Positions 4,047 to 26,339 of a stretch of DNA of 39,326 nucleotides are shown piece after piece. This stretch comes from Akkermansia sp. (lineage in GTDB: Bacteria > Verrucomicrobiota > Verrucomicrobiia > Verrucomicrobiales > Akkermansiaceae): NCBI GenBank assembly GCA_017521405.1, contig JAFXCP010000003.1:1-39326 (forward strand). Direction: 5' to 3'. The notes under the pieces were generated by a model. The model made no database searches, was not told the DNA's origin, and saw only the letters and a program-made list of their open reading frames with translations. Each line of letters starts with the position of its first letter. Position 1 is the first letter of the stretch. The position numbers and the translations under genes are program-made.

Positions 4047-4075
4047 ATTCTACCACAATCCCCCCGCAGGTACAA
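4047..4075 (-). promoter_or_regulatory. panC promoter, apparently leaderless
   Basis: Minus strand: TTGTAC (4075-4070), 17-nt spacer, TGG then TAGAAT (4052-4047), then 7 nt to the panC ATG. The TGG just before the -10 fits an extended -10 element. Transcription would begin at or within a base or two of the start codon. Confidence 0.65.
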
Positions 4076-4139
4076 CCCGGATGACAGGAATGAGACAAAG
4101 GATGTGCGCCGGAAGGTTGAGAAATGTTTGAAATGGCAC

Positions 4140-4169
4140 TTGGCAAGGGTGGCGCGAGTGTGGTAGCAT
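4140..4169 (+). promoter_or_regulatory. dsbD-like gene promoter, apparently leaderless
   Basis: TTGGCA (4140-4145), 18-nt spacer, TGG then TAGCAT (4164-4169), then 7 nt to the ATG at 4177. It faces the panC promoter across about 64 nt. The same TGGTAGnAT core occurs at panC, at 14203 and at 36115. Confidence 0.65.
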
Positions 4170-4176
4170 AAGGCAC

Positions 4177-6354
4177 ATGAATAAGTTTCGCCTTCTCTTA
4201 ATGATGGGGCTGCTGTCCCTCTATCCGGCGGCAGCTCAGATGCCGGAGCTGCTGATGGGGATTCCGGGGATGTCGGCAGCATCGCAAATTTCCGCAAGTG
4301 CTTCTGCCAGTGTGCAAAGTTATGCAGCGGGCAAGCCGTTCTGGGTGGCATTGGAGGTAAGCATCACGCCACCATGGCATGCGTATTACCACCGCAATCC
4401 CGGTACGGTGGGTGAGGGGATGACGGCGGAGTTGCAGGCGCCGGAAGGATTTACCGTCAAAGGGCCGTACTGGCAGGTGCCTACCCGCCACGAAGGGGTG
4501 ACCGGAGTGGCATATGCCTATGAAAACCCCGTGGTGGTGTGGGAGCTGTGTGCGGCAGAAAATGCCCCGGCACAAGCAGAGTTCCGCATGAGCTGCACGG
4601 CGCAGACCTGCTCCGATGATGGGTGCAATCCGCCGGAAACACAGGAGGCAATCGTGATGCTCTCCGCCGGGGATGGCGCCGCCAACCCGGCGTGGAAGGA
4701 GCTGCAAAAGCAGGTGGAGGGGCCGGGCGATACGCCCACAGAGATTTCCGCCAGTCAAAAAGCGGATGCTGTGCAGCTGCATTTTACAGCGGAACCCGGG
4801 CTGGAGAAGGCTTATTTCTTCTCGGCAGATAACAGCATCTCCCCCACGGCCGCACAAACGCTGGCGGCAGATGCTTCCGGCACACACTATACGCTCACCC
4901 TGCCCCGGAACGATAACAGCGATTCGATGTACCCGGTGCTTGATGAAGCTACGGTGGGTAAGCCGCTGCCGCGCTTGCAGGGTACGCTCTGCTATGGCGC
5001 CCGACACTGCACGGTGGATGTGGAGCCGCAAGCCGCCCCGGTGGATTTGAGTATGCCGGAGGGGCTGGCTGCGCTCTGTTTCTCTCTGTTTCTGGGGGGG
5101 CTTATTTTAAATTTGATGCCTTGCGTATTCCCGGTGATTGGGCTGAAGGTGATGAGTTTTGTGCAAATGGGGGGCGGAAGCCGCCGCAGGATTTTTGCCC
5201 ATTCCATGGCCTTTGTGCTGGGGGTGCTGGTATCGTTCTGGTTCATTTCTCTGCTGCTGATTGTGTTCTCTAATTTGGGGACGCTCTCTCAAACGCCATG
5301 GACGGAGTGGGCCGGGGCGCTGCTTCAGGATGCCGGCTCCGCCTCCCGCAGTTGGGCGGCATGGATGCAGAATCCGTGGATTGTGTATGGTATTCTCCTG
5401 CTGCTGCTGGTGCTGGGGATGAGTATGTACGGGGTGTTCGAAATCGGTGCTTCCATTACCGGTGCCGGGCAGGAGATGCAGCAAAAGGAGGGTTTTGTGG
5501 GTTCGTTCTTCCAAGGGCTCTTCGTGACGGTGGTTGCCACGCCTTGCAGTGCGCCTTTCTTGGGGGCAGCTATGCCGGCGGCCATGGCCTTGCCGGGGGT
5601 ATGGATGCTCGCCGCACTCACTTTCATGGCACTGGGGCTCTCTTTCCCGTACATTGTGCTGGGGTGCTTCCCTGCTTTGGTGCAGAAATTGCCCGCACCG
5701 GGAGAATGGATGGAATCTCTCAAACAAGGGCTTTCCTTTGCGCTCTTTGCCGCCGCCGGCTGGATGCTTTATGTGTACCTTTCCTTCTGGCCGGTGGCAG
5801 AAAGTACGGAGACGATGTGGGTATACATGGCACTAGTGGTGTTCTGCGCGGCATTCTGGGTGTATGGGCGCTGGTGTTCCCCCTTCCGCAGCCGTAAGGC
5901 TCGGGTAACGGGGTTCTGCGTGGCGCTGTTACTGGGGGGCTTAGGATTCTGGGGCGCACGCCCCTACGAGGTCGATAAAGCAAAGCCGGAATGGCAGGCA
6001 TGGAGTGCGGCTGCTATGCAGGAGGCACTGGAGGATGAACGCCCGGTGTATGTGGATTTCACGGCAAAATGGTGTGCCACCTGCCAAATGAATAAGAAGG
6101 TGGCATATTCCGATGAGGTGTACGCCCTGCTGAAGAAGGGGGATGTGCTGCTGCTGCGGGCGGATAAAACCAGCCCGAATCCAGAGATTGATGCCGAGAT
6201 GCGCCGTCTGAATCGCAGTTCCGTCCCGGTCAATGCTTTGTACCTGCCGGGCAAGGAGCCGCTGGTGACCTCCGAGTTGCTTACGCCGGATTATCTGGCA
6301 AATTTCCTGCAGCAGCACTTGCCGCAGGAAAAGCAGGAAGATGCAGAGAATTAA
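4177..6354 (+). CDS. DsbD/ScsB-like thiol:disulfide interchange protein
   Basis: A 725-residue inner-membrane protein that should carry electrons from cytoplasmic thioredoxin to periplasmic thiols. In order: a signal peptide (cleavage near AAAQ); a periplasmic N-terminal domain (about 30-285) with cysteines in CTAQTCSDDGC; a hydrophobic core of about eight membrane segments with the paired redox motifs NLMPCVFP (C316) and ATPCSAPF (C457); and a C-terminal thioredoxin-like domain with WCATC (C633, C636). This three-part layout matches DsbD; the long N-terminal domain is also typical of ScsB-like proteins. Its last 14 nt overlap recQ. The promoter lies 7 nt before the ATG. Likely partners here are the secreted thioredoxin-like protein at 35.4-36.0 kb and other envelope proteins (inference). 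Confidence 0.88.
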   Translation: MNKFRLLLMMGLLSLYPAAAQMPELLMGIPGMSAASQISASASASVQSYAAGKPFWVALEVSITPPWHAYYHRNPGTVGEGMTAELQAPEGFTVKGPYWQVPTRHEGVTGVAYAYENPVVVWELCAAENAPAQAEFRMSCTAQTCSDDGCNPPETQEAIVMLSAGDGAANPAWKELQKQVEGPGDTPTEISASQKADAVQLHFTAEPGLEKAYFFSADNSISPTAAQTLAADASGTHYTLTLPRNDNSDSMYPVLDEATVGKPLPRLQGTLCYGARHCTVDVEPQAAPVDLSMPEGLAALCFSLFLGGLILNLMPCVFPVIGLKVMSFVQMGGGSRRRIFAHSMAFVLGVLVSFWFISLLLIVFSNLGTLSQTPWTEWAGALLQDAGSASRSWAAWMQNPWIVYGILLLLLVLGMSMYGVFEIGASITGAGQEMQQKEGFVGSFFQGLFVTVVATPCSAPFLGAAMPAAMALPGVWMLAALTFMALGLSFPYIVLGCFPALVQKLPAPGEWMESLKQGLSFALFAAAGWMLYVYLSFWPVAESTETMWVYMALVVFCAAFWVYGRWCSPFRSRKARVTGFCVALLLGGLGFWGARPYEVDKAKPEWQAWSAAAMQEALEDERPVYVDFTAKWCATCQMNKKVAYSDEVYALLKKGDVLLLRADKTSPNPEIDAEMRRLNRSSVPVNALYLPGKEPLVTSELLTPDYLANFLQQHLPQEKQEDAEN

Positions 6355-8218
6355 GCTCTCCCGCCCGGAGTTTATGGATTTTACCCCCCAGGCCGAACAG
6401 CAAATTCTGCAACGCTTCGGCAAGCAGGCTTTGCGACCGGGGCAGCGGCGACTCATTGAGCTGGTGCTGTCCGGGCAGGATGCCTTGGGGGTGCTTCCCA
6501 CCGGGCACGGAAAAAGTCTTTGCTACCAGGCTGCGGCCTGTTTGCTGGGGGGAACCACGCTGGTGGTATCCCCCCTCATCGCGCTGATGCGGGACCAGTG
6601 CCAAGCATTGCTGCAATGGGGTATCCCCGCCGCTCGCTACGATTCCACTCTGCCGGAGCCGGAACGGGCGGAGGTGCTGCAGGGGCTGCGCACCGGAGCG
6701 TGGCAAATTCTCTTTGTCGCGCCGGAATCGCTGGGGAATACCATCCTGTTGGAATTGCTGCGTGCCCGGCAGCTCTCCCTCATGGTAGTGGATGAGGCAC
6801 ACTGCGTTTCTGAATGGGGACACAGTTTCCGCCCGGATTATCTGCAACTTCCCGGCATTCGGCAGCAGCTCCGCCCCCGCAGTGTATTGGCTCTCACGGC
6901 CACCGCCACGCCCCGCGTACAGGAGGATTTGCGGCAGGCATTCGGCATTGCGGAGGAGGCTTGTGTGCTGCTCTCGCCCTATCGTTCCCATATCCGCCGT
7001 CTCTGCCGCAGTGTCGAGGACCGCCGAGCGGCGCTTCTGCGTTTCCTCCGCGAGGAGGAGACGCCCCTGCCCGCCATTGTGTACTGCCGCAGCCGGAAGG
7101 AAACGGAACAGGTGGCGCTTTTCCTTGCAGATGCAGGCTTTTCGACCGCGCATTACCATGCCGGGCTCCCGGCGGATGTGCGGGAGCGTTTGCAGGATGA
7201 TTTTCTGGCCGGGCGGCTCTCGCTTCTGGTGGCCACTATTGCCTTCGGCATGGGGGTGGATAAGGCGGATGTACGCTCAGTCATCCATTACAGTGTTCCC
7301 TCCTCCCCGGAATCCTACTTGCAGGAATCCGGGCGCGCCGGGCGAGATGGTTTGCCTTGCACCAGTTTGGTTCTCCTGCATGGGGGTGATGTGACAGATG
7401 CCCGCAACCGTATTCGGGCAGCAGAGCCGGATGCAGAGGGTGTTCTGCGCGCAGTGCGCTGGATGCTGCCGCCGCTCCGCCGCGTGGTTTCCCTGTGGGA
7501 GCTGGGTACTAATTGCGATGTGCCGGAGGATGTGCCCACCCGTATTCTCCGGCGTTTGGAATCCGTGGTGGAGGTGGAGGCTCGGGGCTATAAATGGTAC
7601 AAGGCAAAACCACTTTTCCCCATTTCCACCATTACGGACGGACGAGAAACGGATGAGGTGTCACGCCTTCTCTGGCTGAATGAACACCGGGAGGCAGAGG
7701 TGGAGGAGGCTGCGCTGGCTTGGAATTGCTGCTGGGAGGAGGCTCTCTCTTTCCTGCGAGATTGCGAGCAGGCCGGCGAATGGAAAATTTCCTTGCGACA
7801 GCAGGCTCTTTCCCTACGCACGCTCCGCCCGGTATCCGCCAAGGAGATTGCCCAAGAACTTTCCGATGCTTTTGCCCGCCGCCGAGCGGATGATGAGGCA
7901 CGCTTAGAAACCATGCTCCGCATGTTCTCCGCCCCGCATTGTCTCAATCTTGCCTTGCAGGCGTACTTCGGCTTCCCGGTGGAAGCACCCGGCTGCGGGC
8001 ATTGCAGCGCATGCCTTGGTTCCGCCCCGGCGCTGCCGGAGGCAGCCCTGCCGCCCATGCCGAACTTTGCCCCGGGGGATTTGCCGGATTTTGACAGAAA
8101 TGCCCAAAGAAGGCGTTTTCTTCTCGGCATTGCCAGCCCGGGGCTGATGGCACGGCGATTGTGGGCGCATCCCTTGTACGGCTGCTGCGCTGCCCATTCC
8201 TGGGAACAGTTGGGATAA
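6341..8218 (+). CDS. recQ: RecQ-family ATP-dependent DNA helicase
   Basis: This 625-residue superfamily 2 helicase unwinds DNA 3'-5' during recombinational repair. Visible are motif I LPTGHGKS (K58), motif Ia SPLIALMRDQ, motif II DEAH within VVDEAHCVSEWGHSF, motif III TATATP and motif VI SGRAGRDG. A RecQ zinc site follows: a Cys in PHCLNLALQAYFG, then CGHCSAC. No HRDC domain follows, so it is shorter than proteobacterial RecQ in domain content. The ATG at 6341 lies inside dsbD. A second in-frame ATG at 6374, 19 nt past the dsbD stop, is an alternative start before the conserved region. It is presumably cotranscribed with the dsbD-like gene although the functions are unrelated. Confidence 0.9.
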   Translation: MQRIKLSRPEFMDFTPQAEQQILQRFGKQALRPGQRRLIELVLSGQDALGVLPTGHGKSLCYQAAACLLGGTTLVVSPLIALMRDQCQALLQWGIPAARYDSTLPEPERAEVLQGLRTGAWQILFVAPESLGNTILLELLRARQLSLMVVDEAHCVSEWGHSFRPDYLQLPGIRQQLRPRSVLALTATATPRVQEDLRQAFGIAEEACVLLSPYRSHIRRLCRSVEDRRAALLRFLREEETPLPAIVYCRSRKETEQVALFLADAGFSTAHYHAGLPADVRERLQDDFLAGRLSLLVATIAFGMGVDKADVRSVIHYSVPSSPESYLQESGRAGRDGLPCTSLVLLHGGDVTDARNRIRAAEPDAEGVLRAVRWMLPPLRRVVSLWELGTNCDVPEDVPTRILRRLESVVEVEARGYKWYKAKPLFPISTITDGRETDEVSRLLWLNEHREAEVEEAALAWNCCWEEALSFLRDCEQAGEWKISLRQQALSLRTLRPVSAKEIAQELSDAFARRRADDEARLETMLRMFSAPHCLNLALQAYFGFPVEAPGCGHCSACLGSAPALPEAALPPMPNFAPGDLPDFDRNAQRRRFLLGIASPGLMARRLWAHPLYGCCAAHSWEQLG

Positions 8219-8240
8219 GCGGCCTTACCCTCGCATATGC

Positions 8241-8273
8241 AAAAAAGCACCCTTCCCAAGATGGGGAGGGTGC
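8241..8273 (-). terminator. Rho-independent terminator of lipoprotein operon
   Basis: An 11-bp stem (8247-8257 with 8263-8273, one G:T pair) with a 5-nt AAGAT loop. On the minus strand it is followed by six T (8246-8241). It sits 30 nt after the minus-strand lipoprotein stop and 28 nt after the recQ stop. On the plus strand there is no T-run, so it serves the minus strand. Confidence 0.85.
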
Positions 8274-8302
8274 GCTGTGTAAAAATGGTGCTTGCCGGGC
8301 TT

Positions 8303-8737
8303 TTACCCGCGGCGGCGGCGGCCGGTGCTGCGCTTGCGGGTCGCTACGCGCTTGCGGCTGCTCGCTTTGCTGCGGCGTGCCACCTTGCTGCGCTTGGTGT
8401 ATGCCTTGCCACGGCGCGCCACTTTGCCGCGCTTGATATAGGTTTTACCACGGCGCGCCAATTTGCGCTTGGGTGCAGCCTGATTGGGCACGTATTTGGG
8501 GACAGGCATCTTGGCATGATGCACAGCCTTGGCCAATGCGGCACGCTGCTCATCCGCACCGTAGTTGCGCCCATTCTGCGCCTCAAAGTACTTGCGGTAG
8601 GCAGGGTCGACATCGTTGAGGGTGGTTACCTCATCCGGGAAGTGGTAGTAGGCAAGCCCACTGTTCTGCTGACAAGCGGTGAACAAGACCACCAGGGCAG
8701 CAAGTAGGCAAAAAAGAAACTGGCTTTGACGGGACAT
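8303..8737 (-). CDS. Small lipoprotein with very basic repeat tail
   Basis: 144 residues. The N-terminus is a type II signal peptide with lipobox LFTAC, so the mature protein should start at Cys22 and carry lipid. A short ordered-looking segment follows (residues 28-88, Tyr and acidic residues). The last 55 residues are almost entirely Lys, Arg, Ala, Ser and Thr: three tandem 13-residue copies of the type K-V-A-R-R-G-K-A-Y-T-K-R-S, then more Arg. The tail resembles histone-H1-like or LPS/peptidoglycan/nucleic-acid-binding basic tails. What it binds is unknown. It begins 4 nt after the stop of the smaller lipoprotein upstream, so the two form an operon ended by a strong terminator. I do not recognise the family. 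Confidence 0.75.
   Translation of the reverse strand: MSRQSQFLFCLLAALVVLFTACQQNSGLAYYHFPDEVTTLNDVDPAYRKYFEAQNGRNYGADEQRAALAKAVHHAKMPVPKYVPNQAAPKRKLARRGKTYIKRGKVARRGKAYTKRSKVARRSKASSRKRVATRKRSTGRRRRG
8348..8464 (-). repeat. Three tandem 39-bp units encoding 13-residue basic repeats
   Basis: Residues 92-130 of the lipoprotein are three 13-residue units (KLARRGKTYIKRG and two variants). At DNA level the plus strand repeats the block CCACGGCGCGCC with 39-bp spacing, showing internal tandem duplication. Confidence 0.8.
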
Positions 8738-8741
8738 GTTT

Positions 8742-8900
8742 TTATGGGATAAAGGCTCCTAAGACATTGAACGGCAGTTGTAAAAGATAACTCAGCAGCC
8801 CACCGACCATACTGCAAGAGCTGAGCAAAAACGGACTCAGCAGGAGGAGGAACATCTGCGCCGCGCGCTTAAGCCATGCTGTACAGAATGTTGTTGCCAT
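8742..8900 (-). CDS. Very small lipoprotein
   Basis: About 52 residues from the ATG at 8900. A Lys/Arg-containing n-region and a long hydrophobic segment lead to the lipobox LLSSC. Only about 24 residues, mostly hydrophobic, remain after the Cys. This resembles entericidin-size lipoproteins, but no family is recognised. The frame stays open to an ATG at 8951 with an AGAGGG 12 nt upstream. That start would give a poor, acidic signal-peptide n-region, so 8900 is preferred; the choice is uncertain. It lies 4 nt before the basic-tail lipoprotein and is probably cotranscribed with it. Confidence 0.5.
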   Translation of the reverse strand: MATTFCTAWLKRAAQMFLLLLSPFLLSSCSMVGGLLSYLLQLPFNVLGAFIP

Positions 8901-9006
8901 GCTTGTCTGGATACTATGCGGGCGGTCCTCTCCCCTTGCTGAAGGGAGCATAGCATATGTTTACCCTCTTGCCAATACTAAACTTTGCTGAATTATTAAA
9001 TTTTCT

Positions 9007-9035
9007 TTGCAAGAATTGAGAAGTAAGCGTAACAT
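9007..9035 (+). promoter_or_regulatory. Promoter of Nudix gene, apparently leaderless
   Basis: TTGCAA (9007-9012), 17-nt spacer, TAACAT (9030-9035), then 6 nt to the ATG at 9042. Confidence 0.6.
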
Positions 9036-9041
9036 AATGCC

Positions 9042-9614
9042 ATGAAGTGCATTTTTTCTGATTCTCGGGAAGAGCTCCGCAAGATGTTGGAGGATTTTGG
9101 CCACCGCCACCCGAGCCAAGCCCCCACGGTACAGGAGATGCTCCGCCGAATAAGCGAGCGGCATGATTGTTTCAGCCGCAGTGAGTTAGATGGTCATTTT
9201 ACAGGCTCAGCATGGTTGGTGAACCCGGCAAATAATCGTGTTCTGCTCACGCTGCACCGCAATTTAAAACGCTGGATGCAAACAGGCGGACATGCCGATG
9301 GGGATTCATGCCTGCTTCGCGTTGCTCTGCGGGAAGCAGAGGAGGAAAGCGGCATTAGCGGTATTGTTCCCCTCTCGGCGGGTGTTTTTGATGTGGATAT
9401 CCACGCCATACCCAACCGCCCGGACAGACATGAGCCGGCACACCTTCATTACGATGTGAGATTTCTCTTACAGGCTCCCCACGAGGAGTTTAGCATCTCC
9501 GATGAATCTGATGACCTAAAGTGGTGGAGTGCAGAGGAAATCCTGCAACAAGCCGATAGTATGGATGAATCCGTGCAACGCATGGCAAAAAGGTGGATGG
9601 AAAATGCTTGCTGA
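9042..9614 (+). CDS. Nudix hydrolase
   Basis: 190 residues. The Nudix box begins at GGHADGD and ends REAEEESGI, placing the catalytic helix near residues 83-105. The REx-x-EE core that binds the metal is intact. The first box Glu is replaced (DS where the general pattern has Glu), as seen in the GGHADG-type subgroup. The family hydrolyses nucleoside diphosphates linked to another group. The substrate cannot be read from the sequence. The N-terminal 50 residues are a helical extension. It is a single gene with its own promoter, divergent from the small lipoprotein operon. Confidence 0.88.
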   Translation: MKCIFSDSREELRKMLEDFGHRHPSQAPTVQEMLRRISERHDCFSRSELDGHFTGSAWLVNPANNRVLLTLHRNLKRWMQTGGHADGDSCLLRVALREAEEESGISGIVPLSAGVFDVDIHAIPNRPDRHEPAHLHYDVRFLLQAPHEEFSISDESDDLKWWSAEEILQQADSMDESVQRMAKRWMENAC

Positions 9615-9638
9615 GGGCTGCTTTTCAGCGGAAAGGGC

Positions 9639-9667
9639 TTGCCTGATGCCTCCGGCTCTGATAGGAT
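9639..9667 (+). promoter_or_regulatory. Promoter of unknown helical protein
   Basis: TTGCCT (9639-9644), 17-nt spacer, TAGGAT (9662-9667), 13 nt before the ATG at 9681. The reading frame extends up to a TTG inside the -35 box. The promoter therefore argues for the ATG at 9681 as the true start. Confidence 0.55.
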
Positions 9668-9680
9668 AGACTGCGCGATT

Positions 9681-10274
9681 ATGCTCTTCGAAACCACACC
9701 ATTAACTCCGCAAGGACGCTTATCCGCGCTGGAGGCTCTGTTTACCGAAGTGGCGCGGCGCAGCGCTCCGCAGGTGAAGGAGGGGCATGTACCGGTGGAG
9801 GTATTGGAGGCGTATGGCAATTTTGAGACACCCCTCAAATACACGCTGGAGGCAGCCATGAGCAGCAGCCGAGAACGCGAGCGCCTGAGCCACCTGCGAA
9901 AGATTGAAAAGCTCTTGCGAGAGCTGCCGGATGCGCTGATGCTGAGCCTGACAGCCGGGCCGGAGGAGAACTGGCTCTGCCTCTACCGAAAGTTGCTTTT
10001 ACTGCACGAGCTGCTTACCGGTGAGAACTCCACGATTGAGGAGGAGGGATACCGGGTGATGATGCAGAAGATGGTGCATTTGGCGGAGACGGTGGCAAAA
10101 TATGCCGCTGTGGAGATTAATGCGGCATCCATGTTCACGCTTCTGCTGATGCAGGTGGAGATGCAACGCATCAACCCACCCCGGAGACGAAGGGTTAAGC
10201 CCCGGAAGAAGCGTAAATCCAAGCGCAACACAAGAATGCGTCAGCGCGGAGCCTCCGAGGCGGCTGTCTCCTGA
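9681..10274 (+). CDS. Unknown helical protein with basic C-terminus
   Basis: 197 residues from the promoter-supported ATG. It is predicted almost wholly helical, rich in Leu and Glu, with repeated amphipathic stretches between about 20 and 150. From about residue 160 it turns strongly basic (PPRRRRVKPRKKRKSKRN). There is no signal peptide or membrane segment, so it should be cytoplasmic. The basic tail suggests nucleic acid or ribosome contact, which is only inference. Its last 34 nt overlap, tail to tail, the end of the J-domain gene on the other strand, and no terminator separates them. I do not recognise the family. Confidence 0.6.
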   Translation: MLFETTPLTPQGRLSALEALFTEVARRSAPQVKEGHVPVEVLEAYGNFETPLKYTLEAAMSSSRERERLSHLRKIEKLLRELPDALMLSLTAGPEENWLCLYRKLLLLHELLTGENSTIEEEGYRVMMQKMVHLAETVAKYAAVEINAASMFTLLLMQVEMQRINPPRRRRVKPRKKRKSKRNTRMRQRGASEAAVS

Positions 10275-12428: not shown

Positions 12429-12454
12429 GGACGTAAGGGAAATAAAATGCTATC

Positions 12455-12910: not shown

Positions 12911-12919
12911 ATCGTTTTT

Positions 12920-12979: not shown

Positions 12980-13008
12980 TTGATTAAACAGCTTGAGACA
13001 GGTAGAAT
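12980..13008 (+). promoter_or_regulatory. Promoter of small membrane protein-pdxA, apparently leaderless
   Basis: TTGATT (12980-12985), 17-nt spacer, TAGAAT (13003-13008), then 7 nt to the ATG at 13016. Confidence 0.6.
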
Positions 13009-13015
13009 ACCCCAC

Positions 13016-13255
13016 ATGAAGACGTGTCTGGGAAGCCTGTTGCTGGTTCCTGTTATCATCATTCTGGTGGTAACAGTCATCTACCATGCATCCGTCAACT
13101 CGGAACTTCGTTTCGAGCAGCGGGATACAAATGCCCAGTACATTAACACCGCACGCTCCTACCGCCCCCAAATTAAAGCTACCCCCAAACAAGCTGCTCC
13201 CCCCATTTTGGAAGAGCTGCAGAATGATGACACCGCAGAGGAGGTACAGCCGTGA
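13016..13255 (+). CDS. Small single-pass membrane protein
   Basis: 79 residues from the promoter-supported ATG. Residues 4-24 form one strongly hydrophobic segment (LGSLLLVPVIIILVVTVIY). A soluble tail rich in Gln, Pro and acidic residues follows. It could be a membrane anchor or an uncleaved signal. The stop overlaps the GTG start of pdxA (GTGA), so translation is coupled. The family is not recognised. It is too short to match by eye, but promoter, coupling and composition support a real gene. Confidence 0.6.
   Translation: MKTCLGSLLLVPVIIILVVTVIYHASVNSELRFEQRDTNAQYINTARSYRPQIKATPKQAAPPILEELQNDDTAEEVQP
13239..13245 (+). promoter_or_regulatory. Strong Shine-Dalgarno deciding a GTG start for pdxA
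   Basis: AGGAGGT ends 6 nt before the GTG at 13252, inside the small upstream gene. It supports the non-ATG start. Confidence 0.75.
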
Positions 13256-14178: not shown

Positions 14179-14208
14179 TTGCTAACGCATGGGGAAATAT
14201 GGTAGCAT
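14179..14208 (+). promoter_or_regulatory. Promoter upstream of 3D-domain gene and its short leader frame
   Basis: TTGCTA (14179-14184), 18-nt spacer, TGG then TAGCAT (14203-14208). The first ATG, 6 nt downstream at 14215, opens a 13-codon frame and not the protein-coding gene, whose ATG is at 14278. The leader of the main gene is therefore about 60 nt. Confidence 0.55.
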
Positions 14209-14214: not shown

Positions 14215-14256
14215 ATGCCGCGCCCCGGGGCTCGGCATCCTTTCATAGTATACTGA
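14215..14256 (+). CDS. Possible 13-codon leader peptide overlapping a hairpin
   Basis: ATG at 14215 reads MPRPGARHPFIVY and stops at TGA (14254-14256), 21 nt before the 3D-domain gene. Its first 24 nt (14215-14238) are a near-perfect inverted repeat: ATGCCG pairs with CGGCAT and GCCCC with GGGGC. A message starting here would carry its first start codon inside a stem. This is either a regulatory leader peptide or simply a 5' protective hairpin containing an accidental ATG. Confidence 0.3.
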   Translation: MPRPGARHPFIVY

Positions 14257-14277
14257 AATTTTCCGAAATTCCTTCAC

Positions 14278-17672: not shown

Positions 17673-17676
17673 GGAT
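17648..17676 (+). promoter_or_regulatory. Autotransporter promoter
   Basis: TTGACG (17648-17653), 17-nt spacer, TAGGAT (17671-17676). Transcription would start near 17683, leaving a leader of about 130 nt. That is far longer than the leaders of its neighbours. Confidence 0.6.
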
Positions 17677-17680
17677 ACCC

Positions 17681-17709
17681 AACATCATGCCCGGTCGTGG
17701 CATGATGTT
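17681..17709 (+). other. Perfect 11-bp hairpin at the expected 5' end of the autotransporter mRNA
   Basis: AACATCATGCC (17681-17691) pairs fully with GGCATGATGTT (17699-17709) across a 7-nt loop. Only three T follow, so it is a weak terminator candidate for priA. Because the promoter lies just upstream, it more likely forms at the very 5' end of the autotransporter message, as a stabiliser or attenuator. A second GC-rich hairpin (CGCCCC-TTCG-GGGG type) lies near 17759-17776. Confidence 0.5.
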
Positions 17710-17811
17710 TCTCCCCCGGCAGGAAAAGTGATGTACAGCTCCTGCGCTTCCCCTTTGAACGCGCCCCTTCGGGGGATAGGCGGCGCCCCCCCAACCCAAT
17801 GCCCACATTCC

Positions 17812-20800
17812 ATGAAATTACACTTACCCCTGCTATTGCTGCATGCCCTGCTGGGTAGCAGCTTTGCCGCATATACCGATCAGGATGGCACACGCACCTA
17901 TACCGGCAGCGGCAATACCAATATCAACCTTACCAATATGCCGGGAATCAGCGCTCTGGTGTTCGATATGAATGCCTCCGGCAGCAACTATTTCAACAGC
18001 GGAAACCAGAGCTTTGCCGGAGATGTCACCATCGGTAATACTGAAACCACGCAGGGGCTCATTATCAACAACGGCTACGCCGGGCAAACCATCACCTTCT
18101 CCGGGAATATCTCCGGCAATGGCAGCATTCTCAAAACAGGCGCCCCGCCCAAGGGCATGAGCCTCCATTTCTCCGGAAATATGGAGAATTTTACCGGGAA
18201 TATGGAAGTGGATGGCAATTCCGGCATCATTCTCGGTAATGCCTCTACAAGCCTCATATGCAATGCCGCTACATACAACTTCAGCAACCTAGCCCTGCAA
18301 GGGGATACCACCTTTTCCGGGAGCGGCAGCATTGGAAATCTCAGCGGCAATACAGCCACTTTATCCCTCACAAGTACAGCTAACCTCTCGCTGGAAGGCA
18401 CCATCCGCCTAAGCCAAGCCATTTCCAATGCCGGTTCCGTTAGCTTTGGTTCCAATGTTGTTTTGGATTTATCTGCTCTCACTCCCCAAAATCAGGTATA
18501 CACCATCGTATCCGGGGGAAATTTAAGCGGATTCACCTCCCTCTCGGAGGAATCAAACATCACAGGATACGAAGATTTTGGCACAACGCTGACTTTTCAA
18601 CCGGACGGAACCATATCCATTACGAAGGACAGCAATCTGCGTACTTGGAGCGGAGGGGCACTCACATGGCAAATCGGTAGTCTTTTCGATGGGAACGAGA
18701 GCTATTCCAATGGAGATTTTGTTCTCTTTTCCGGGGTGTCGGAAGTTGTTCTGGGAACAAATATCGATACAGGAGGCATCAACATTACAGAGGGAGCCGA
18801 AGTCTCACTGAGAGGAAATGGTAACACACTCAGCAATAATGGACGCCTAATTATTAACGGAACTTTATCCTTGCAGGATTCTGCTCTGGCAGCCCCGGCG
18901 GAGGCGGAAGGCAGCGGTACTCTCTCTATCCAAGGGAGTGAGGTGCAGCTCGACACCTTCTCCACTGCAAGCACCGCCACACTAATGCTGGAGGTAGCTC
19001 CGCAAGCTGCTCTGGTGCTGAATGGCGGCAGCACGCACTTTTACAACACCTCCGCCATACAGGAGCATGGAAGCATCTCTCTGGAAAACAGTGCAACACT
19101 CCTTTTGGATTTGAACGGCAGAGCCGGTACGATTACCGCCACCATGGAAACCCTCACATTGGCGAACAACAGTACCTTCCTACTAGGGTTCAGCACCGGA
19201 GGCAAATCCTTTCAGGTGGACAATTTGCAAGTATCCGGGAATACTACTTTCGGTGCACGCAACACCGGGGATTGCGGCATCATTACCATTGGCAAGCTCG
19301 TTTCCGAAGGCAGTGGTAACACCCTCGTATTAGCCTCCGGAGTTCCTACCTCCAAACACAACATTTTTCATTTGAACGGAGGCAGTTTTAGCGGCACAAT
19401 AGAATTGAGCAGCTCCGACGGAGGCACCGCTAGTTTGCGGCGGCCGGTAATGAACATCAGTGCAGAAAGTGTAGCTGCCAATGCGGTGCTGAACTTCTCG
19501 GAAACTGCTGCCAAACCCACACAGTTCGGCTTAGGCATAGGCGCCCAATTAGTTCAATTGGGAGGCATTGATACTACGCTTGATAACACCGATTCCCTTA
19601 CCATTTTCTCCGGAGCATGGAGTCAGTCCAGCAATCGCCCCTACACATCAGACTCCACGGTACGAACGATTCAATTGATGTCTCCCCAAGGGTGCGATTA
19701 CAGCACCAATGCCCTGCTTCTGGAAAATCTCAATCTCCTAAAATCCGGAGAAGGGACACAACGATTCACAGGAGATTTATCTGCTATGAACGGCAGCATC
19801 CAAGTACAAGCGGGACTACTGGAACTCTCCTCCGCAGGGGCAGCCGGCACTATCTCCCTAGCAGAAGGATGCACAATTATCATCACCGGGGGCTGGCTCC
19901 TCGGCAATGGGCAAACTTTAGAGGTAAAGGGAAATGCCACTATGGGAAATCCACTTACGCTGCAAGTCGGCACCTTGCAACTCCAAGGAACACTTTCCTT
20001 AGATGACCATCCTCTCACGCTGGATGCTACGGATAAAACAACTCTTGTGCTCGATACGCCCTCCCTCGGGGAACAGGTGTTGTTCTCTAACGTATCTGCA
20101 TTGGAAGGAAGCACGCTCTCTGCCGATTCTGTTTTGGGAGATTTTTTTGTTGTGGATGACCCCAATTTGGCGGCATCGTCCATCGTTTTTGACAATAATG
20201 AATTAAAGATAATCATCAGCAATGCGGATACGCTCTACTGGGAAGGAAATAGTGGAAGCAGCTGGGATTCCGTCTCGTGGTCAGCCACGGATGGCAGCTC
20301 TGCAAGGCTCTCTAACTTTAGTCCCGGGAAAAAAGCCGTTCTCTCCGGAGCCGCTCAGGATACGACCATTCTCGTGAATGCTGCTACGGAAGCAGCAGCC
20401 CTCACCGTGCAGCAAGGCAACTATGTTCTGAGCGGCAGCGGAAGCCTTTCCGTGGCCGGAGATATTCTCGTGGAAGAAGGGAAACTGACATTGGGAGTCC
20501 CCACGGAAGCCACCATGCTTCAGGCAGAAAACGCCGGTGCGGTGCGATTGCAGGAAACAGCCACGTTTGAGCGCATTTCGGGCGGACAAATTGAAGCTCA
20601 GGCAGCCTTAAACCTCCAAACCGGCGCCAGTACCACAGAGCAATTAAGCAGCACAGGCGGACTGTCTCTTGGTGCCACGGCCACATTAGCAGTAGAGGGG
20701 ATGCTCAGCATTGGTGGAAGCATTGCACTTGCCGGTGATGATGGGACGGCAAGCACGCCCATCATCACCGCAGGGAGTCTCACGCTGCTCTCCGAGCTTA

Positions 20801-22965
20801 TGGAGTGGGATGTTAGCCCGCTCATGCAAAAACAAGCCGGCAAAAGCCTCCTCCTGCAACTCGCCCAAGGAAGCAACAGCCCCGCGCTAAGCATCAACGG
20901 AACAGGAATGGCCAGTACCAGCACGGATGGGGGGCTATACACTTACACCCTTGCTTGGAGCAACAACGGCACCATGCTTTCTCTTATTACCACAGTGTTG
21001 CAAAATGAGTGGATAGGTGATATTTGGACTAACGCCGCTTCCTGGAGCATGGGATTTGCCCCCACAGCGGAGGGAGAAGCTGCTTTTCTGGGCAATGGGA
21101 ATGCCATCGTCAATCTTGGCGGGGCAAGCCCTCGTGCCGGCACACTCACCGTGGAGAGTCCGGAGAAGGATTACACCCTCGTCAATGGCTCACTTTCCAT
21201 CAATTCCATGCAGCTGAACAGTGGGGCATTCACCATTGCACCCTCGGCTCAACTCTTTGCCGGACAGCTCAATGGAGAGAGTGGCACTCTGGGCGGCACT
21301 ATCACTATTTACGGTTCCGGTGGCGATTTCAGCGGAACGTATTCTCGAGCCACAGTGCAAGTGGAGGGCGGCACCCAGAGATTAGCCCCGGCGGAAGGTC
21401 TCACCATCGCCGGAGGTGAAGGAACTATTCAACTTTACTACGACACGGATGCTCAAATGGATGCCATGCGGCTGACCGGCGCAAATGTCGTACTGGAACG
21501 TACCACCGGCAGTACGCTCAGCCTTTCGGACACGTCCTCCATAAGAGGCGGTAGCCTCACCTTCCTCATGAGCGGAGAGGAACTGGGCAGCAATATCATC
21601 CTTGGCACACTGAATATGCAGGAAAGCACCCTTTTTCTCGGGGCGGATGCCTCCACCACCCTTCTTGATGTGCGCGGGTATGGGGATACAGTGCTGGCCG
21701 TAGTGGGAAGCGGAGAGACCAGCAGCACCCAAGTGCAGCTGCAAGGCCCCGTGTTCCGAAAGTATTTTCGGGCAGCAAAAGTGGAAAACGGAGTGGTTAC
21801 AGCCCGGCGGAACAATGGATATGTGCAGGAGATGCTGGGGGCTCATACGCCCAATGGCAAAGCCGGCGCCTCCTTGCTAAACGATGTTTTCATTTCCCAA
21901 AACCCACAATACTCCCATCCCGGCAGCATCCTGGCCACTCTTCTGAATGCTGTGGATAAGCAAGAGCTGGATGACCGCACGGCAGCAGCCATTGCGGGTG
22001 CCGGCACAGCCATGTTAGGAGCAGCACTCAATGGAGATGTGCAGCGGCAGTTACACAGCATCCGCAATCGCACCTCCACCATGGGAGTGGACCAAATGGT
22101 AGAGCATCCGGACATGCCTTACTTCAATGCCTGGATTCAGGGCGAATATGACTATGCCGAGCTGTCCTCCGATGGCACATATAGCGGCTACAGGAGAAAC
22201 CGCTGGGGCGGCACTCTGGGGTGCGATGCGGACTTTACCCCCGAATGGGTGGCCGGATTGGCTTTTACTGCCATGCAGGGTGATTCGGACGCCCGAAGTG
22301 CCGATGATGCTCAGGGGGAATTGGAATCATACTATTTGAGCCTTTTTGCTCGCTATGCCGCAAGAGCATGGACTCACACCTTCGTTGCCACCGTGGGGCA
22401 AGCAGAGGCAAAACTTCATCGTACGGTGCGTTTTGGGGAAGGGCTTTATCACAGCACCGGCAGGACAGATGGTAAGGCTTTTGGCTTTCTGTACGAGTTC
22501 GGAAGAGTATTCGCCCTCGATGAACATGCCGAGACCTGCCTCCAGCCCATGGCCAACATTGCGCTTCGCCACAGCAGTCTCGATGCCTACAAAGAACATG
22601 GCAACGAGGCCTCGCTCCATGTAGATGCCCGGAGCATGACTTCGCTTGATTTAGGACTGGGCGCAAGGCTGCAATCCATTGTGGGGGAGAGTATTTATAA
22701 CAGGAGTGCTGTCTTGGAGCTGCGCGCTCTGCTCAAGGGTACACTGGGGGACCGCCGGGCGGAAAGCGTGGTGCGTTTCCTGAACGCCGATAAGCACGCT
22801 ACATTGCACAGTACAAAAGTCGGTGCTCTGGGGATGGAACTGGGTGCCGGCTTGGCCGTCCCTATCAGCCAATCGGCAGGCTCTCTCTTTCTGGACGTCT
22901 CGGCGGAACTACGCAGCCACACCTCGCAAATAAACGCCACTGTGGGTTATAGGTTACCATTTTGA
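17812..22965 (+). CDS. Large autotransporter (type Va secretion) surface protein
   Basis: 1717 residues from the ATG at 17812. The frame is open 28 codons further up, but a clear signal peptide (MKLHLPLLLLHALLGSSFAA) starts here. The passenger (about 20-1430) is Gly/Ser/Thr/Asn-rich with repeated short beta-strands (for example SGNISGNGSILKTG), typical of autotransporter-associated beta-helices. Three W-x-G segments of the type WEGNSGSSWDSVSW (about 278, 808 and 1066) punctuate it. The last 285 residues (about 1433-1717, from MPYFNAWIQGEYDY) are an autotransporter beta-barrel ending in an outer-membrane-type aromatic residue (YRLPF). It should display its passenger on the cell surface. The ligand is unknown. 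A 130-nt structured leader and operator-like repeats suggest regulation. No Shine-Dalgarno is present. Confidence 0.9.
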   Translation: MKLHLPLLLLHALLGSSFAAYTDQDGTRTYTGSGNTNINLTNMPGISALVFDMNASGSNYFNSGNQSFAGDVTIGNTETTQGLIINNGYAGQTITFSGNISGNGSILKTGAPPKGMSLHFSGNMENFTGNMEVDGNSGIILGNASTSLICNAATYNFSNLALQGDTTFSGSGSIGNLSGNTATLSLTSTANLSLEGTIRLSQAISNAGSVSFGSNVVLDLSALTPQNQVYTIVSGGNLSGFTSLSEESNITGYEDFGTTLTFQPDGTISITKDSNLRTWSGGALTWQIGSLFDGNESYSNGDFVLFSGVSEVVLGTNIDTGGINITEGAEVSLRGNGNTLSNNGRLIINGTLSLQDSALAAPAEAEGSGTLSIQGSEVQLDTFSTASTATLMLEVAPQAALVLNGGSTHFYNTSAIQEHGSISLENSATLLLDLNGRAGTITATMETLTLANNSTFLLGFSTGGKSFQVDNLQVSGNTTFGARNTGDCGIITIGKLVSEGSGNTLVLASGVPTSKHNIFHLNGGSFSGTIELSSSDGGTASLRRPVMNISAESVAANAVLNFSETAAKPTQFGLGIGAQLVQLGGIDTTLDNTDSLTIFSGAWSQSSNRPYTSDSTVRTIQLMSPQGCDYSTNALLLENLNLLKSGEGTQRFTGDLSAMNGSIQVQAGLLELSSAGAAGTISLAEGCTIIITGGWLLGNGQTLEVKGNATMGNPLTLQVGTLQLQGTLSLDDHPLTLDATDKTTLVLDTPSLGEQVLFSNVSALEGSTLSADSVLGDFFVVDDPNLAASSIVFDNNELKIIISNADTLYWEGNSGSSWDSVSWSATDGSSARLSNFSPGKKAVLSGAAQDTTILVNAATEAAALTVQQGNYVLSGSGSLSVAGDILVEEGKLTLGVPTEATMLQAENAGAVRLQETATFERISGGQIEAQAALNLQTGASTTEQLSSTGGLSLGATATLAVEGMLSIGGSIALAGDDGTASTPIITAGSLTLLSELMEWDVSPLMQKQAGKSLLLQLAQGSNSPALSINGTGMASTSTDGGLYTYTLAWSNNGTMLSLITTVLQNEWIGDIWTNAASWSMGFAPTAEGEAAFLGNGNAIVNLGGASPRAGTLTVESPEKDYTLVNGSLSINSMQLNSGAFTIAPSAQLFAGQLNGESGTLGGTITIYGSGGDFSGTYSRATVQVEGGTQRLAPAEGLTIAGGEGTIQLYYDTDAQMDAMRLTGANVVLERTTGSTLSLSDTSSIRGGSLTFLMSGEELGSNIILGTLNMQESTLFLGADASTTLLDVRGYGDTVLAVVGSGETSSTQVQLQGPVFRKYFRAAKVENGVVTARRNNGYVQEMLGAHTPNGKAGASLLNDVFISQNPQYSHPGSILATLLNAVDKQELDDRTAAAIAGAGTAMLGAALNGDVQRQLHSIRNRTSTMGVDQMVEHPDMPYFNAWIQGEYDYAELSSDGTYSGYRRNRWGGTLGCDADFTPEWVAGLAFTAMQGDSDARSADDAQGELESYYLSLFARYAARAWTHTFVATVGQAEAKLHRTVRFGEGLYHSTGRTDGKAFGFLYEFGRVFALDEHAETCLQPMANIALRHSSLDAYKEHGNEASLHVDARSMTSLDLGLGARLQSIVGESIYNRSAVLELRALLKGTLGDRRAESVVRFLNADKHATLHSTKVGALGMELGAGLAVPISQSAGSLFLDVSAELRSHTSQINATVGYRLPF

Positions 22966-22982
22966 AAATGAAAGCCACCCCT

Positions 22983-23023
22983 AAAGAAATCCCCGCCACA
23001 TTCACTGTGGCGGGGATTTCTTT
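22983..23023. terminator. Bidirectional terminator between autotransporter and SurA-like gene
   Basis: An 18-bp perfect stem (22983-23000 with 23006-23023) with a 5-nt TTCAC loop. It has A-rich left and T-rich right ends, so it can end transcription in both directions. It lies 17 nt after the autotransporter stop and 12 nt from the convergent gene. Confidence 0.92.
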
Positions 23024-23035
23024 TAGGAAAACACC

Positions 23036-24052
23036 TCAAATGAAGGTTCGAATAACGGCTTTGTCTCGCAAACGGTCAATCCACTGGCGGTAGCGTTTTT
23101 CGCTCTTCTTACGGCGTACCGCATCGTCCACCTTCTGCTTCACCTCCGGATCGGATAGCGGTGCGGCAGCAGCCAAACGCTTACTGCGAACCTTTACAAT
23201 CGTGAAACCGGCAGGATCCAACAAGGGACCTACAAGCTGCCCACGCTCTGCCGCAAACACCACGTTGGCAAATTCCACAGCCAAATCGCTACGGCGCAGC
23301 TCCGGCCAGCGGCCACCATCCTCCGCATGAGCATCGCGGGAGTGCTGCCGCGCAGCATCCGCAAAGCTAATGCTGCCCTTCTCAAGCTGTTCCTTCAGCC
23401 CGACTGCCAAGTTGTACTGGGCTTCGGGGTCCAACATAGGATTCTCCGGGTCCATGGCGGGGATGAAAATCTTATCATAGGAGATAGCATCTTTCATAAT
23501 ATCACGATAATCTGCGCGGGTCGCAGCATATTCTTCCTTAATTTCATCCGGGGTGGGCGGGATGCCGCGCTCATAACGGGCACTTCGCATGGAAGATACG
23601 GTGATTTCCTTACGCACGGAATCGCGATACTCGCTGTACGTCATCCCGCTCTTACGCAGGCTACTCAAAAATTCATCCCGATCGCCATTGAACTGGTAGA
23701 GAACTCGGCGGCTAATCTCATCCTCCACCATGTCCTCCTTCATCATGTACCCCTTTGTCTCGAACTCGCTGAGTACGAGTTCACGCTCAATCAGGTCATC
23801 CATCACGGCTTTTTTAGCCTTCACCAGCTCGGAATTAAAGCGGGGACCCTGCCGGGGATACAGCAGCATCAACTCGCGGAAATAGGGAATCAAACGTGCA
23901 CGCACTTCGCTGGAGGTAATCGGGCGTCCATTCACTGTAGCGGCAATGCGGTTCACCACGCCTCCTTTGGGCGCAGACCCCTGAGCAGACACCTCTAAAG
24001 GCAGCGTCAACATGGCCAAAATAATGGCGACGAAACGGCAGATGGGTTTCAT
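23036..24052 (-). CDS. SurA-like periplasmic peptidyl-prolyl isomerase/chaperone
   Basis: 338 residues from the ATG at 24052, chosen because a signal peptide (MKPICRFVAIILAMLTLPLEVSA) begins there. An N-terminal SurA-type chaperone region (about 30-180) opens with IAATVNGRPITSSEVRARL and includes MDDLIERELVLSEFETKG. A parvulin-type rotamase domain follows (about 190-310), with the motifs SFADAARQHSRDAHAEDGGRWP and VGPLLDPAGFTIVKV. SurA escorts outer-membrane proteins to the BAM complex, so the adjacent convergent autotransporter is a natural client (inference). It has one parvulin domain, not two as in E. coli SurA. The promoter is 9 nt upstream. Confidence 0.85.
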   Translation of the reverse strand: MKPICRFVAIILAMLTLPLEVSAQGSAPKGGVVNRIAATVNGRPITSSEVRARLIPYFRELMLLYPRQGPRFNSELVKAKKAVMDDLIERELVLSEFETKGYMMKEDMVEDEISRRVLYQFNGDRDEFLSSLRKSGMTYSEYRDSVRKEITVSSMRSARYERGIPPTPDEIKEEYAATRADYRDIMKDAISYDKIFIPAMDPENPMLDPEAQYNLAVGLKEQLEKGSISFADAARQHSRDAHAEDGGRWPELRRSDLAVEFANVVFAAERGQLVGPLLDPAGFTIVKVRSKRLAAAAPLSDPEVKQKVDDAVRRKKSEKRYRQWIDRLRDKAVIRTFI

Positions 24053-24061
24053 ATGCCCATC

Positions 24062-24090
24062 ATCATACTGCACTTTAGCACCAGCTGCAA
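24062..24090 (-). promoter_or_regulatory. Promoter of SurA-like gene
   Basis: Minus strand TTGCAG (24090-24085), 17-nt spacer, TATGAT (24067-24062), 9 nt before the ATG at 24052. Confidence 0.6.
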
Positions 24091-24180
24091 TCTACTTCTT
24101 TGTCAACGATGGAATTTTATGCTCGCCAACAAATAAAATCCATGTTAATTTGGGAGAGTTAAGCAAATTTACTTTTCACT

Positions 24181-25272
24181 ATGGCAATCAAATTGTTCAT
24201 CCCCGGTCCGACGATTGTGTCGGAAGACATTCTTCAGGAAATGAGCCTACCGATGATTGGTCACCGCTCCAAGAAAGCATCCGAAATCCAGAAGCGCATT
24301 TCCGACAACATGCAGAAGGTACTTTTCACGGAAAATCGGATTTTGCTCTCCACCTCCTCCGGCTCCGGTCTTATGGAAGGAGCCATTCGCTCCTGCACAG
24401 CGAAGCGTGCGGCCGTATTCTCCATTGGTGCCTTCGGTGATAAGTGGTTCAAGATGGCCAAGGCTAATGGTGTTCCGGCGGATAAGTTCGACAGTGTGAT
24501 GGGCGAACCCACCACCGCCGAAATGGTGGATGCCGCGCTCTCCACCGGCAAATACGATGTGCTGACGGTAACCCACAATGAGACCTCCTCCGGTATTCAA
24601 AACCCGGTGGAAGAAATTGCTGAGGTGATGAAGAAATACCCGGATGTGGTGTGGTGTGTGGATGCGGTTTCCTCTGCCGCAGGCTCCAAGATTGAAACGG
24701 ACAAGCTCGGCATTGACGTACTGATTACCTCCACCCAGAAGGCTCTGGCCCTGCCTCCGGGCTTGGCACTCTGTGCCATGAGCCGCAAAGCATACGAACG
24801 CACCGCCGAGGTGGAAAATCGCGGTCTGTATTTCGACCTCCGCACACTCTGGGATTTCATTGACAAGAAGAATTACCAGTACACCTCCACCCCCTGCCTT
24901 TCTCTGATGTATGCACTGGACAAGCAGCTGCAACACATCGTGGAGGAAGAAGGCATCGAAAACCGCTTTGCACGCCACGAGCAGATGGCCGAATTCACCC
25001 GTGCTTGGGCAGATGAATACTTCCGTGTATACCCGAACCGCAAATACCTCTCCAAGACGCTGACGGTGATTGATTCCCATTCCAAGGGTTCCGATGAGAT
25101 GATTTCCATCCCCGAACTCAATAAATTCTTGGCAGAGCGCAATATGCAGCTGGGTAACGGATACGGAGGCCTTAAGGACAAGACATTCCGCATTGCCCAC
25201 ATGGGCGAACTCACCATGGAACACATGAAGGAAATTACCTCCGCCGTGGTCGACTACCTCCGCAGCAAATAA
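24181..25272 (+). CDS. Class V aminotransferase, probable phosphoserine or serine-glyoxylate type
   Basis: 363 residues. It is a PLP enzyme of the alanine-glyoxylate/serine-pyruvate aminotransferase clade. The opening FIPGPTIVSEDILQEM, the cofactor Asp in WCVDAVSSAAGS (D161) and the Schiff-base Lys in ITSTQKALALPPG (K187) are visible. Enzymes of this clade can replace SerC in serine synthesis, and a serA gene lies 8.5 kb downstream. Use as the phosphoserine transaminase is therefore plausible but not shown. A possible -10 TTTACT lies 7 nt before the ATG with a poor -35 (TTAATT). It diverges from the SurA-like gene. Confidence 0.88.
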   Translation: MAIKLFIPGPTIVSEDILQEMSLPMIGHRSKKASEIQKRISDNMQKVLFTENRILLSTSSGSGLMEGAIRSCTAKRAAVFSIGAFGDKWFKMAKANGVPADKFDSVMGEPTTAEMVDAALSTGKYDVLTVTHNETSSGIQNPVEEIAEVMKKYPDVVWCVDAVSSAAGSKIETDKLGIDVLITSTQKALALPPGLALCAMSRKAYERTAEVENRGLYFDLRTLWDFIDKKNYQYTSTPCLSLMYALDKQLQHIVEEEGIENRFARHEQMAEFTRAWADEYFRVYPNRKYLSKTLTVIDSHSKGSDEMISIPELNKFLAERNMQLGNGYGGLKDKTFRIAHMGELTMEHMKEITSAVVDYLRSK

Positions 25273-25305
25273 CTGCAAAGGCGAAGAACATACCTTTTCC
25301 CCATT

Positions 25306-25345
25306 TCCCGCAGCTGCATCTTGTGGCTGCGGGATTTGCGTTCTT
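25306..25345 (+). terminator. Probable terminator of the aminotransferase gene
   Basis: A 9-bp perfect stem TCCCGCAGC/GCTGCGGGA (25306-25314 with 25326-25334) with an 11-nt loop, then TTTGCGTTCTT. The T-run is interrupted. It also lies in the gap downstream of the convergent minus-strand pair. Confidence 0.6.
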
Positions 25346-25349
25346 GCAC

Positions 25350-25829
25350 TCACATCCCGGGGAATGCAGGCAGTTGCGCCCTCTGAGCCCACCATTGAGC
25401 CACCGTATCGGCCACCGGAATACTTAAGCCGCACGGCAATTTACCCACCCGGTAGGCTTGCTCCAGCAGCAGGCAAGCCTCCTGCTGTCCGGCACGCCCC
25501 ATGCGGTGCAAATCCACAGCCGCAGCATACTGAGCCTCGTGCCTGGAGATATCCACTGTGGGATTACGCTCCTGCAACCAGAGCAACAAGCGAATACAAA
25601 ACAGGGCATCCTCCCGGCTCTGCATAGCGGCATGCCAACGCACCCACGCCTGAGGGAGAACTACTCGCCCTGTTTGCAGGATAAGGCCACTCTCCGCCGC
25701 AGCTCCGCTACCATTCCACACCTCTGCAAAAGCAGCCGGATCCAGAGTAACGGCACCTTCCGGAGCCAATGGCTCACTCGCCCCCCACAACGCCGTGGAG
25801 AAACAAAAGGAGACCGCCGCCCCCTGCAT
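25350..25829 (-). CDS. Unknown small exported protein
   Basis: 159 residues from the ATG at 25829, which overlaps the upstream gene's stop by one base (TGATG) and so is translationally coupled. A short hydrophobic N-terminus (MQGAAVSFCFSTALWGA) looks like a signal peptide without a strong basic n-region. The rest is helical, with Trp-rich segments (WVRWHAAMQ, QWWAQRAQL) and a middle part (RHEAQYAAAVDLHRMGRAGQQEACLLLEQAYRVG) that resembles a TPR/Sel1-like helical hairpin pair. No family is recognised. Confidence 0.6.
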   Translation of the reverse strand: MQGAAVSFCFSTALWGASEPLAPEGAVTLDPAAFAEVWNGSGAAAESGLILQTGRVVLPQAWVRWHAAMQSREDALFCIRLLLWLQERNPTVDISRHEAQYAAAVDLHRMGRAGQQEACLLLEQAYRVGKLPCGLSIPVADTVAQWWAQRAQLPAFPGM

Positions 25830-26263
25830 CAGCGCTGAGCGGAACGGCGAGCAAAGGGATGTGTGATGATGGTCCATGCTTCCTGCAAACCGGAAGAAAT
25901 AAAGTACGGCTCATTCTTCAACGCCTCCATCTGGAGGTTTATTTTATTCTGAGCCACCGAGAGAGCCTCCAACTGAGCCACATTACCGTTCATAATAGGA
26001 GGCAAGGGAGAAAACATCTGCTTGAGCTTCTTGCTCACCTCTTTGGCCGATTTCTCATCGTCCACCTGCCGCAACAAATCCGCACCTTGTACCAACGCCT
26101 CCATTTCCTTGTTGATGACGTTGGCTAACCCCTTTTCCGAGAGAGCGCGCGGTCCGTTTCCACGACGTTTGATAGAGGCCTCATCCAAATCCGCCATCAG
26201 CGGCAGAGGAGCCAACAAACTTACAGCAAGAGAGAACAAAATCAGATGGCGCTTTCCGGGCAT
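25829..26263 (-). CDS. Small exported helical protein (DxxSA family)
   Basis: 144 residues from the ATG at 26263. It has a signal peptide (MPGKRHLILFSLAVSLLAPLPLMA). The mature part is helical and contains LLRQVDDEKSAKEVSKKLKQM. This has the same pattern (hydrophobic-x-x-I/V-x-D-K/E-x-SA-x-x-x-x-x-L) as the two small exported proteins at 29.6-30.5 kb. No enzyme motif is seen. The start is fixed by a consensus promoter ending 6 nt upstream. It is the first gene of a coupled pair. Confidence 0.68.
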   Translation of the reverse strand: MPGKRHLILFSLAVSLLAPLPLMADLDEASIKRRGNGPRALSEKGLANVINKEMEALVQGADLLRQVDDEKSAKEVSKKLKQMFSPLPPIMNGNVAQLEALSVAQNKINLQMEALKNEPYFISSGLQEAWTIITHPFARRSAQR

Positions 26264-26269
26264 GCCCGC

Positions 26270-26299
26270 ATCATAGCACAAGAAATCACGCCCTGTCAA
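26270..26299 (-). promoter_or_regulatory. Promoter of small exported protein pair, apparently leaderless
   Basis: Minus strand TTGACA (26299-26294), 18-nt spacer, TATGAT (26275-26270), then 6 nt to the ATG at 26263. Confidence 0.7.
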
Positions 26300-26310
26300 A
26301 TAGCAAATAA

Positions 26311-26339
26311 TTGACAAAGCACCGCACCGGGAGTATCTT
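26311..26339 (+). promoter_or_regulatory. Promoter of C_GCAxxG_C_C gene, apparently leaderless
   Basis: TTGACA (26311-26316), 17-nt spacer, TATCTT (26334-26339), then six C and the ATG at 26346. It is back to back with the minus-strand promoter, only 11 nt apart. Confidence 0.7.

Follow-up and report, generated by a model that had tools for sequence, protein, structure and literature searches.

The window (the whole stretch of DNA analysed, 39,326 nt) is contig C18 of an Akkermansia-like MAG assembly of 1.985 Mb in 38 contigs. Promoters combining a TTG-led -35 box with a -10 box of the form TAnnnT lie ahead of several of its genes and are collected in Table 1, where d is the gap in nucleotides from the -10 hexamer to the start codon. 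The panC product matches the Pantoate_ligase domain, the DsbD-like product matches DsbD domains, and the C_GCAxxG product matches the C_GCAxxG_C_C domain; comparison of the exported protein (ATG 26263) with Pfam gave zero matches, and the small membrane-type protein of gene 13016 is conserved in 57 of 60 genomes, its own genome counted. The 82-nt gap between the divergent exported-protein and C_GCAxxG genes (26264-26345) is filled by two back-to-back promoters, and both divergent messages are therefore predicted to be leaderless. At the left end of the window, positions 1-2271 on the minus strand, to the left of ATG 2271, contain many imperfect repeats recognizable by eye, and this putative frame may encode a surface protein rich in repeats that extends beyond the edge of the window.

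Table 1. Promoters in the window, with the spacing to the start codon and the predicted type of message.
Promoter of	Coordinates	Strand	-35 box	Spacer (nt)	-10 box	d (nt)	Start	Prediction
panC	4047..4075	-	TTGTAC (4075-4070)		TAGAAT (4052-4047)	7	ATG 4039	predicted leaderless
DsbD-like gene	4140..4169	+	TTGGCA (4140-4145)		TAGCAT (4164-4169)	7	ATG 4177	predicted leaderless
Nudix gene	9007..9035	+	TTGCAA (9007-9012)		TAACAT (9030-9035)	6	ATG 9042	predicted leaderless
Small membrane-type gene (13016-13255)	12980..13008	+	TTGATT		TAGAAT	7	ATG 13016	predicted leaderless
3D-domain gene	14179..14208	+	TTGCTA	18	TAGCAT		14278	predicted 63-nt leader, 14215-14277
SurA/PpiC-like gene	24062..24090	-	TTGCAG	17	TATGAT	9	ATG 24052	second class, predicted 2-nt leader
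Exported-protein gene	26270..26299	-	TTGACA (26299-26294)		TATGAT (26275-26270)	6	ATG 26263	predicted leaderless
C_GCAxxG gene	26311..26339	+	TTGACA (26311-26316)		TATCTT (26334-26339)	6	ATG 26346	predicted leaderless
Gene starting at 36017	36027..36055	-			TATGCT	9	ATG 36017	second class
GH20 gene	36093..36120	+	TTGACT	16	TAGGAT	11	ATG 36132	second class

The first-pass annotation had read seven sites in the window as leaderless starts. All seven of its strings of -35 box, spacer, -10 box, gap and ATG match the sequence letter for letter, and the leaderless reading is retained for six, at which the -10 box stands ~6-7 nt ahead of the start codon as it does in leaderless genes. Orthologue sets consist of best-scoring loci and are not random samples: for panC, the 13 Akkermansia-labelled loci among the 80 relatives listed, all from MAGs with labels that include goat, yak, buffalo, roe deer, horse and A. 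muciniphila; for the other genes, the best 29 loci besides the source, out of 58 other genomes matched for the DsbD-like gene, 46 for Nudix, 43 for C_GCAxxG, 57 for the SurA-like gene and 58 for the 3D-domain gene. A d of 6-7 recurs in 10 of the 13 panC loci and in 23 of the 26 placed DsbD-like orthologues (19, plus 4 at another in-frame ATG). Among the 27 placed Nudix orthologues, d is 6-7 in 8, 9 in 7, 8 in none, and 13 at another ATG in 1; among the 29 C_GCAxxG orthologues it is 6-7 in 15 and 9 in 1. The absence of the layout from the remaining 11/27 Nudix and 13/29 C_GCAxxG orthologues speaks against the leaderless reading. Predicted leaderless initiation is thus well supported by orthologue spacing at panC and at the DsbD-like, Nudix and C_GCAxxG genes, and at 13016 and 26263 it is plausible from the spacing itself.

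The short frame at 14215, the seventh site, is rejected as a leaderless start. The frame falls within the leader that precedes the 3D-domain gene (14278), and the promoter ahead of it is the leadered promoter of that gene. A TTG/TAnnnT promoter is found 50-83 nt before the start in 28 of 29 3D-domain orthologues (search range 40-94 nt), with nothing nearer in the placed frame and one case of d = 12 at another ATG; these orthologues retain a leader of ~45-77 nt, and an ATG at the predicted +1 occurs in 0 of 28, so that 14215 is not a conserved coding start. Within the leader, a 24-nt imperfect inverted repeat begins at the predicted +1 (fold z -1.4), and a similar GCCG/CGGC pair is visible by eye in some close orthologues; the orthologue alignment of this leader yielded no pairs for a consensus structure.

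The case of 14215 illustrates a general alternative, namely that the ATGs are mis-called, the real start being a later in-frame codon and the mRNAs leadered. Start calling relied only on codon score and a bonus for ATG, upstream signals being unused, and some of the starts will be wrong. Nevertheless, in many panC, DsbD-like, C_GCAxxG and SurA-like orthologues the similarity extends to residue 1, each with its own promoter equally spaced, and as a general account mis-calling is quite improbable.

The spacing was counted in a sample of the source genome comprising 785,794 bp (40 stretches plus the window, about 40% of the genome), in which 525 genes were called. First genes were taken as those that diverge from the previous gene or follow it at a distance of more than 80 nt; 272 qualified, of which 262 start with ATG. 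Among the 272, TAnnnT occurs 9, 24, 12 and 3 times at d = 5, 6, 7 and 8, then 20, 15, 11 and 7 times at d = 9, 10, 11 and 12, and 1-11 times per position at d = 13-35. The TAnnnT peak before ATG that the first-pass annotation proposed to look for is thus present in this part of the genome: 36 of the 262 ATG first genes have TAnnnT at d = 6 or 7, against a mean of 7.5 and a maximum of 16 in 300 shuffles (expectation 3.6-3.9 per position), although at least five of the 36 are window genes that prompted the test. When a TTG 16-19 nt upstream is also required, the counts for d = 6 to 13 are 17, 8, 1, 13, 8, 5, 0 and 0, with 0.3-0.4 expected at each. Its description of leaderless initiation as widespread is fair, the layout fitting about one first gene in ten, but it is not the rule: full TTG/TAnnnT promoters are present at d = 6-7 in 25 of the 262 and at d = 4-13 in 54, while 48 have one solely at d = 14-60. 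In a small E. coli control of 24 first genes, TAnnnT occurs at d = 6 in 0 and at d = 7 in 2.

The layout is confined to promoter-proximal genes: it occurs in 4 of 136 genes close behind another and in 36 of the 272 first genes (Fisher P = 0.0006). Since TAnnnT and ATG are both frequent and the sites were originally picked by eye, some of them reappearing in the sample, chance could be suspected. As a general explanation it is rejected by the shuffle counts, with and without the -35 box, and by the recurrence of the peak in ten genomes outside the original observation, and its probability is negligible. Positional enrichment, restriction to first genes in the source genome, and conservation in orthologues of several genes are observed.

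In the ten congeneric genomes (299 first genes, 282 with ATG), TAnnnT occurs at d = 6, 7, 8 and 9 in 19, 7, 5 and 18 genes, giving 26/282 at d = 6-7 against 7.4 in shuffles, the same peak as in the source. A MAG labelled A. muciniphila (G059) has a weak peak at d = 6-7 (5/75 against 1.9, shuffle maximum 9); with a -35 box required, it has 2, 3 and 2 at d = 6, 7 and 8 against 0.1 expected. The order-level relatives G041 and G050 have 3/64 and 0/71 at d = 6-7, and the low-G+C order-level relative G057 is at background (3 against 3.3). The source and its ten relatives together differ from G041 and G050 (63/571 against 3/135, Fisher P = 0.0008, G057 being left out of this comparison). The actinobacterial control G060 has 13, 4, 5 and 2 of its 79 first genes at d = 6, 7, 8 and 9, and there close-behind genes also have the spacing (7/59 at d = 6-7). 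The d = 6-7 pattern is real and common to the relatives.

First genes carry few Shine-Dalgarno (SD) sequences, as do leaderless genes and the genes of SD-scarce bacteria. SD 5-mers precede 4.9% of 142 first genes, with controls at 4.2-4.9%, and strong 6-mers precede 5 of 272 (control 82/4352), in agreement with the initial observation that almost no first gene has an SD. AGGAGGT does lie 6 nt ahead of both pdxA (GTG 13252) and the J-domain gene (ATG 11002), as had been described. The contrast drawn from these between first and coupled genes survives weakly, in pooled relatives only: strong 6-mers precede 10/182 close-behind genes in 11 relatives against 110/5920 control ATGs, a modest excess, and in the source they precede 4/136, without clear excess. 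A search for the 16S rRNA gene, which would carry the anti-SD CCUCC, found none in the source assembly and matched 9 of 14 genomes. Akkermansia has been described as SD-scarce with CCUCC intact (PMC10783764).

The counts contain a second peak, at d = 9-11. The first-pass annotation had noted seven further sites leaving 9-13 nt. Five of these have TTG, 16-17 nt and TAnnnT, at d = 9 (2271, 24052 and 36017), 11 (36132) and 13 (9681); the other two do not, site 26829 having just CAGAAT at d = 9 and site 12910 having neither TAnnnT nor CAnnnT within 30 nt upstream. These sites are not a loose tail, as most fall in the second peak. In 12 pooled genomes, the 102 full promoters are distributed as 29, 15, 5, 22, 11 and 7 at d = 6 to 11 and 13 elsewhere, a few being counted at two spacings where TAnnnT hexamers overlap. 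Tested against its neighbours, the trough at d = 8 gives P = 0.0003 for the source, 0.10 for the remaining genomes and 0.0002 for all pooled; these values are post hoc, the trough having been noticed before it was tested. It is weak outside the source (4 observed against 8), absent from G059 (3, 3 and 2 at d = 7, 8 and 9), and not absolute, d being 8 in 14 and 9 in 11 of the 29 SurA/PpiC-like orthologues.

The base before the ATG is C in 34 of the 44 pooled d = 6-7 promoters, as expected for a pyrimidine-purine start on A; this is weak evidence, because close-behind genes, too, are frequently preceded by C (53% of 309). In the d = 9-11 class, T precedes the ATG in 20 of 40. A non-ATG start codon 3 nt upstream was rejected as the origin of the second peak, the triplets there being mixed. 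From a simple rule for transcription start sites (TSS), the second peak predicts leaders mostly of 2-5 nt, often with U at -1. For the SurA/PpiC-like gene a 2-nt leader is predicted because A or G followed by T stands ahead of the ATG, an arrangement counted by eye in 23 of 29 orthologues. Ahead of its -35 box (24091-24105), many orthologues share a run resembling ACAAAGAAGAA, perhaps an UP element or operator.

Another account of the d = 8-11 peak is that it, too, is leaderless, with a longer discriminator placing the transcription start at the A of the ATG and the frequent T serving as the pyrimidine. This would require starts 9-12 nt past the -10 box, farther than is usual, and the SurA-like orthologues mostly offer a purine 7-8 nt past the box; the account is unlikely. 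Tentatively, and at somewhat less than even odds, SD-less first genes of the Akkermansia family would have two discrete layouts, with the ATG either at +1 or behind a leader of ~2-5 nt that frequently carries U at -1, a 1-nt leader being avoided. If so, the ribosome would distinguish a bare 5' AUG from one with a minimal leader, genes with a minimal leader would form a second functional class of starts, and the two-peaked spacing would provide a natural data set on the shortest working leader. Two-class spacing was not found in those parts of the literature on leaderless and short-leader genes, Akkermansia and Verrucomicrobia that were drawn on here; it is a new detail of the pattern and a lead deserving new data.

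Taken together, the data favor, with a probability of about 0.88, housekeeping-type promoters placed for leaderless initiation and SD-independent translation. The promoters appear to be of the ordinary housekeeping type (TTG, ~17 nt, TAnnnT, often an extended -10). RNA polymerase usually starts ~7 nt past the -10 box, which in this placement would be the A of the start codon. The leaderless mRNAs would be translated without SD pairing, ribosomes presumably recognizing the 5'-terminal AUG. Roughly one first gene in ten has this layout, and in about as many the -10 box and the ATG are 9-11 nt apart. We infer the actual 5' ends and TSS, like the translation mechanism, from the DNA.

Alternatively, the promoters could be real while others upstream yield the main, leadered transcripts, likewise SD-less. 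Flavobacterium johnsoniae lacks SD sequences and yet is mostly leadered, according to the part of the study cited (PMC6847099), and 48 of the 262 first genes have only a more distant candidate promoter. The near promoter is kept in panC and DsbD-like orthologues despite differing flanks, however, and leaderless TSS have been measured in A. muciniphila, as reported in the portion used of PMC4782308; dominance of upstream promoters is very improbable. In practical terms, the -10-to-ATG spacing, and not an added ribosome-binding site, is what to attend to when calling starts or designing expression constructs for these bacteria.

Translation of leaderless mRNAs by 70S ribosomes is covered in a review (PMC9031893). 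In Actinobacteria and Deinococcus-Thermus, leaderless genes are marked by TANNNT at about -12 relative to the start codon (PMC3160421); the TA-led genes described there share this mark with the source, and Verrucomicrobia and Akkermansia are absent from the main text. The single actinobacterial control has one main peak (17 at d = 6-7 and 4 at d = 9-11 among 79 first genes), whereas there are two in the source and ten relatives taken together, with 63 and 76 among 571 first genes (Fisher P = 0.004). Flavobacterium johnsoniae, of the Bacteroidota, is likewise SD-less, there with an intact anti-SD, and differs in that 87% of its predicted transcripts have leaders longer than 10 nt, judging from the excerpt of PMC6847099 used here. 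The closest precedent is Cappable-seq of mouse caecum, in which ~10% of A. muciniphila TSS coincide with gene starts, compared with 0.4% in E. coli, so that the leaderless phenomenon is already known in the genus (PMC4782308, in the portion drawn on). Those transcripts resemble the source in genus label and in their usual -35 and -10 boxes, and differ in being RNA data from another species, with -10-to-ATG spacing classes not found in that portion of the paper. Leaderless initiation, RNA-mapped in a single Akkermansia species, is here extended to an Akkermansia-like lineage of the gut, orthologues supplying the evidence at individual genes.
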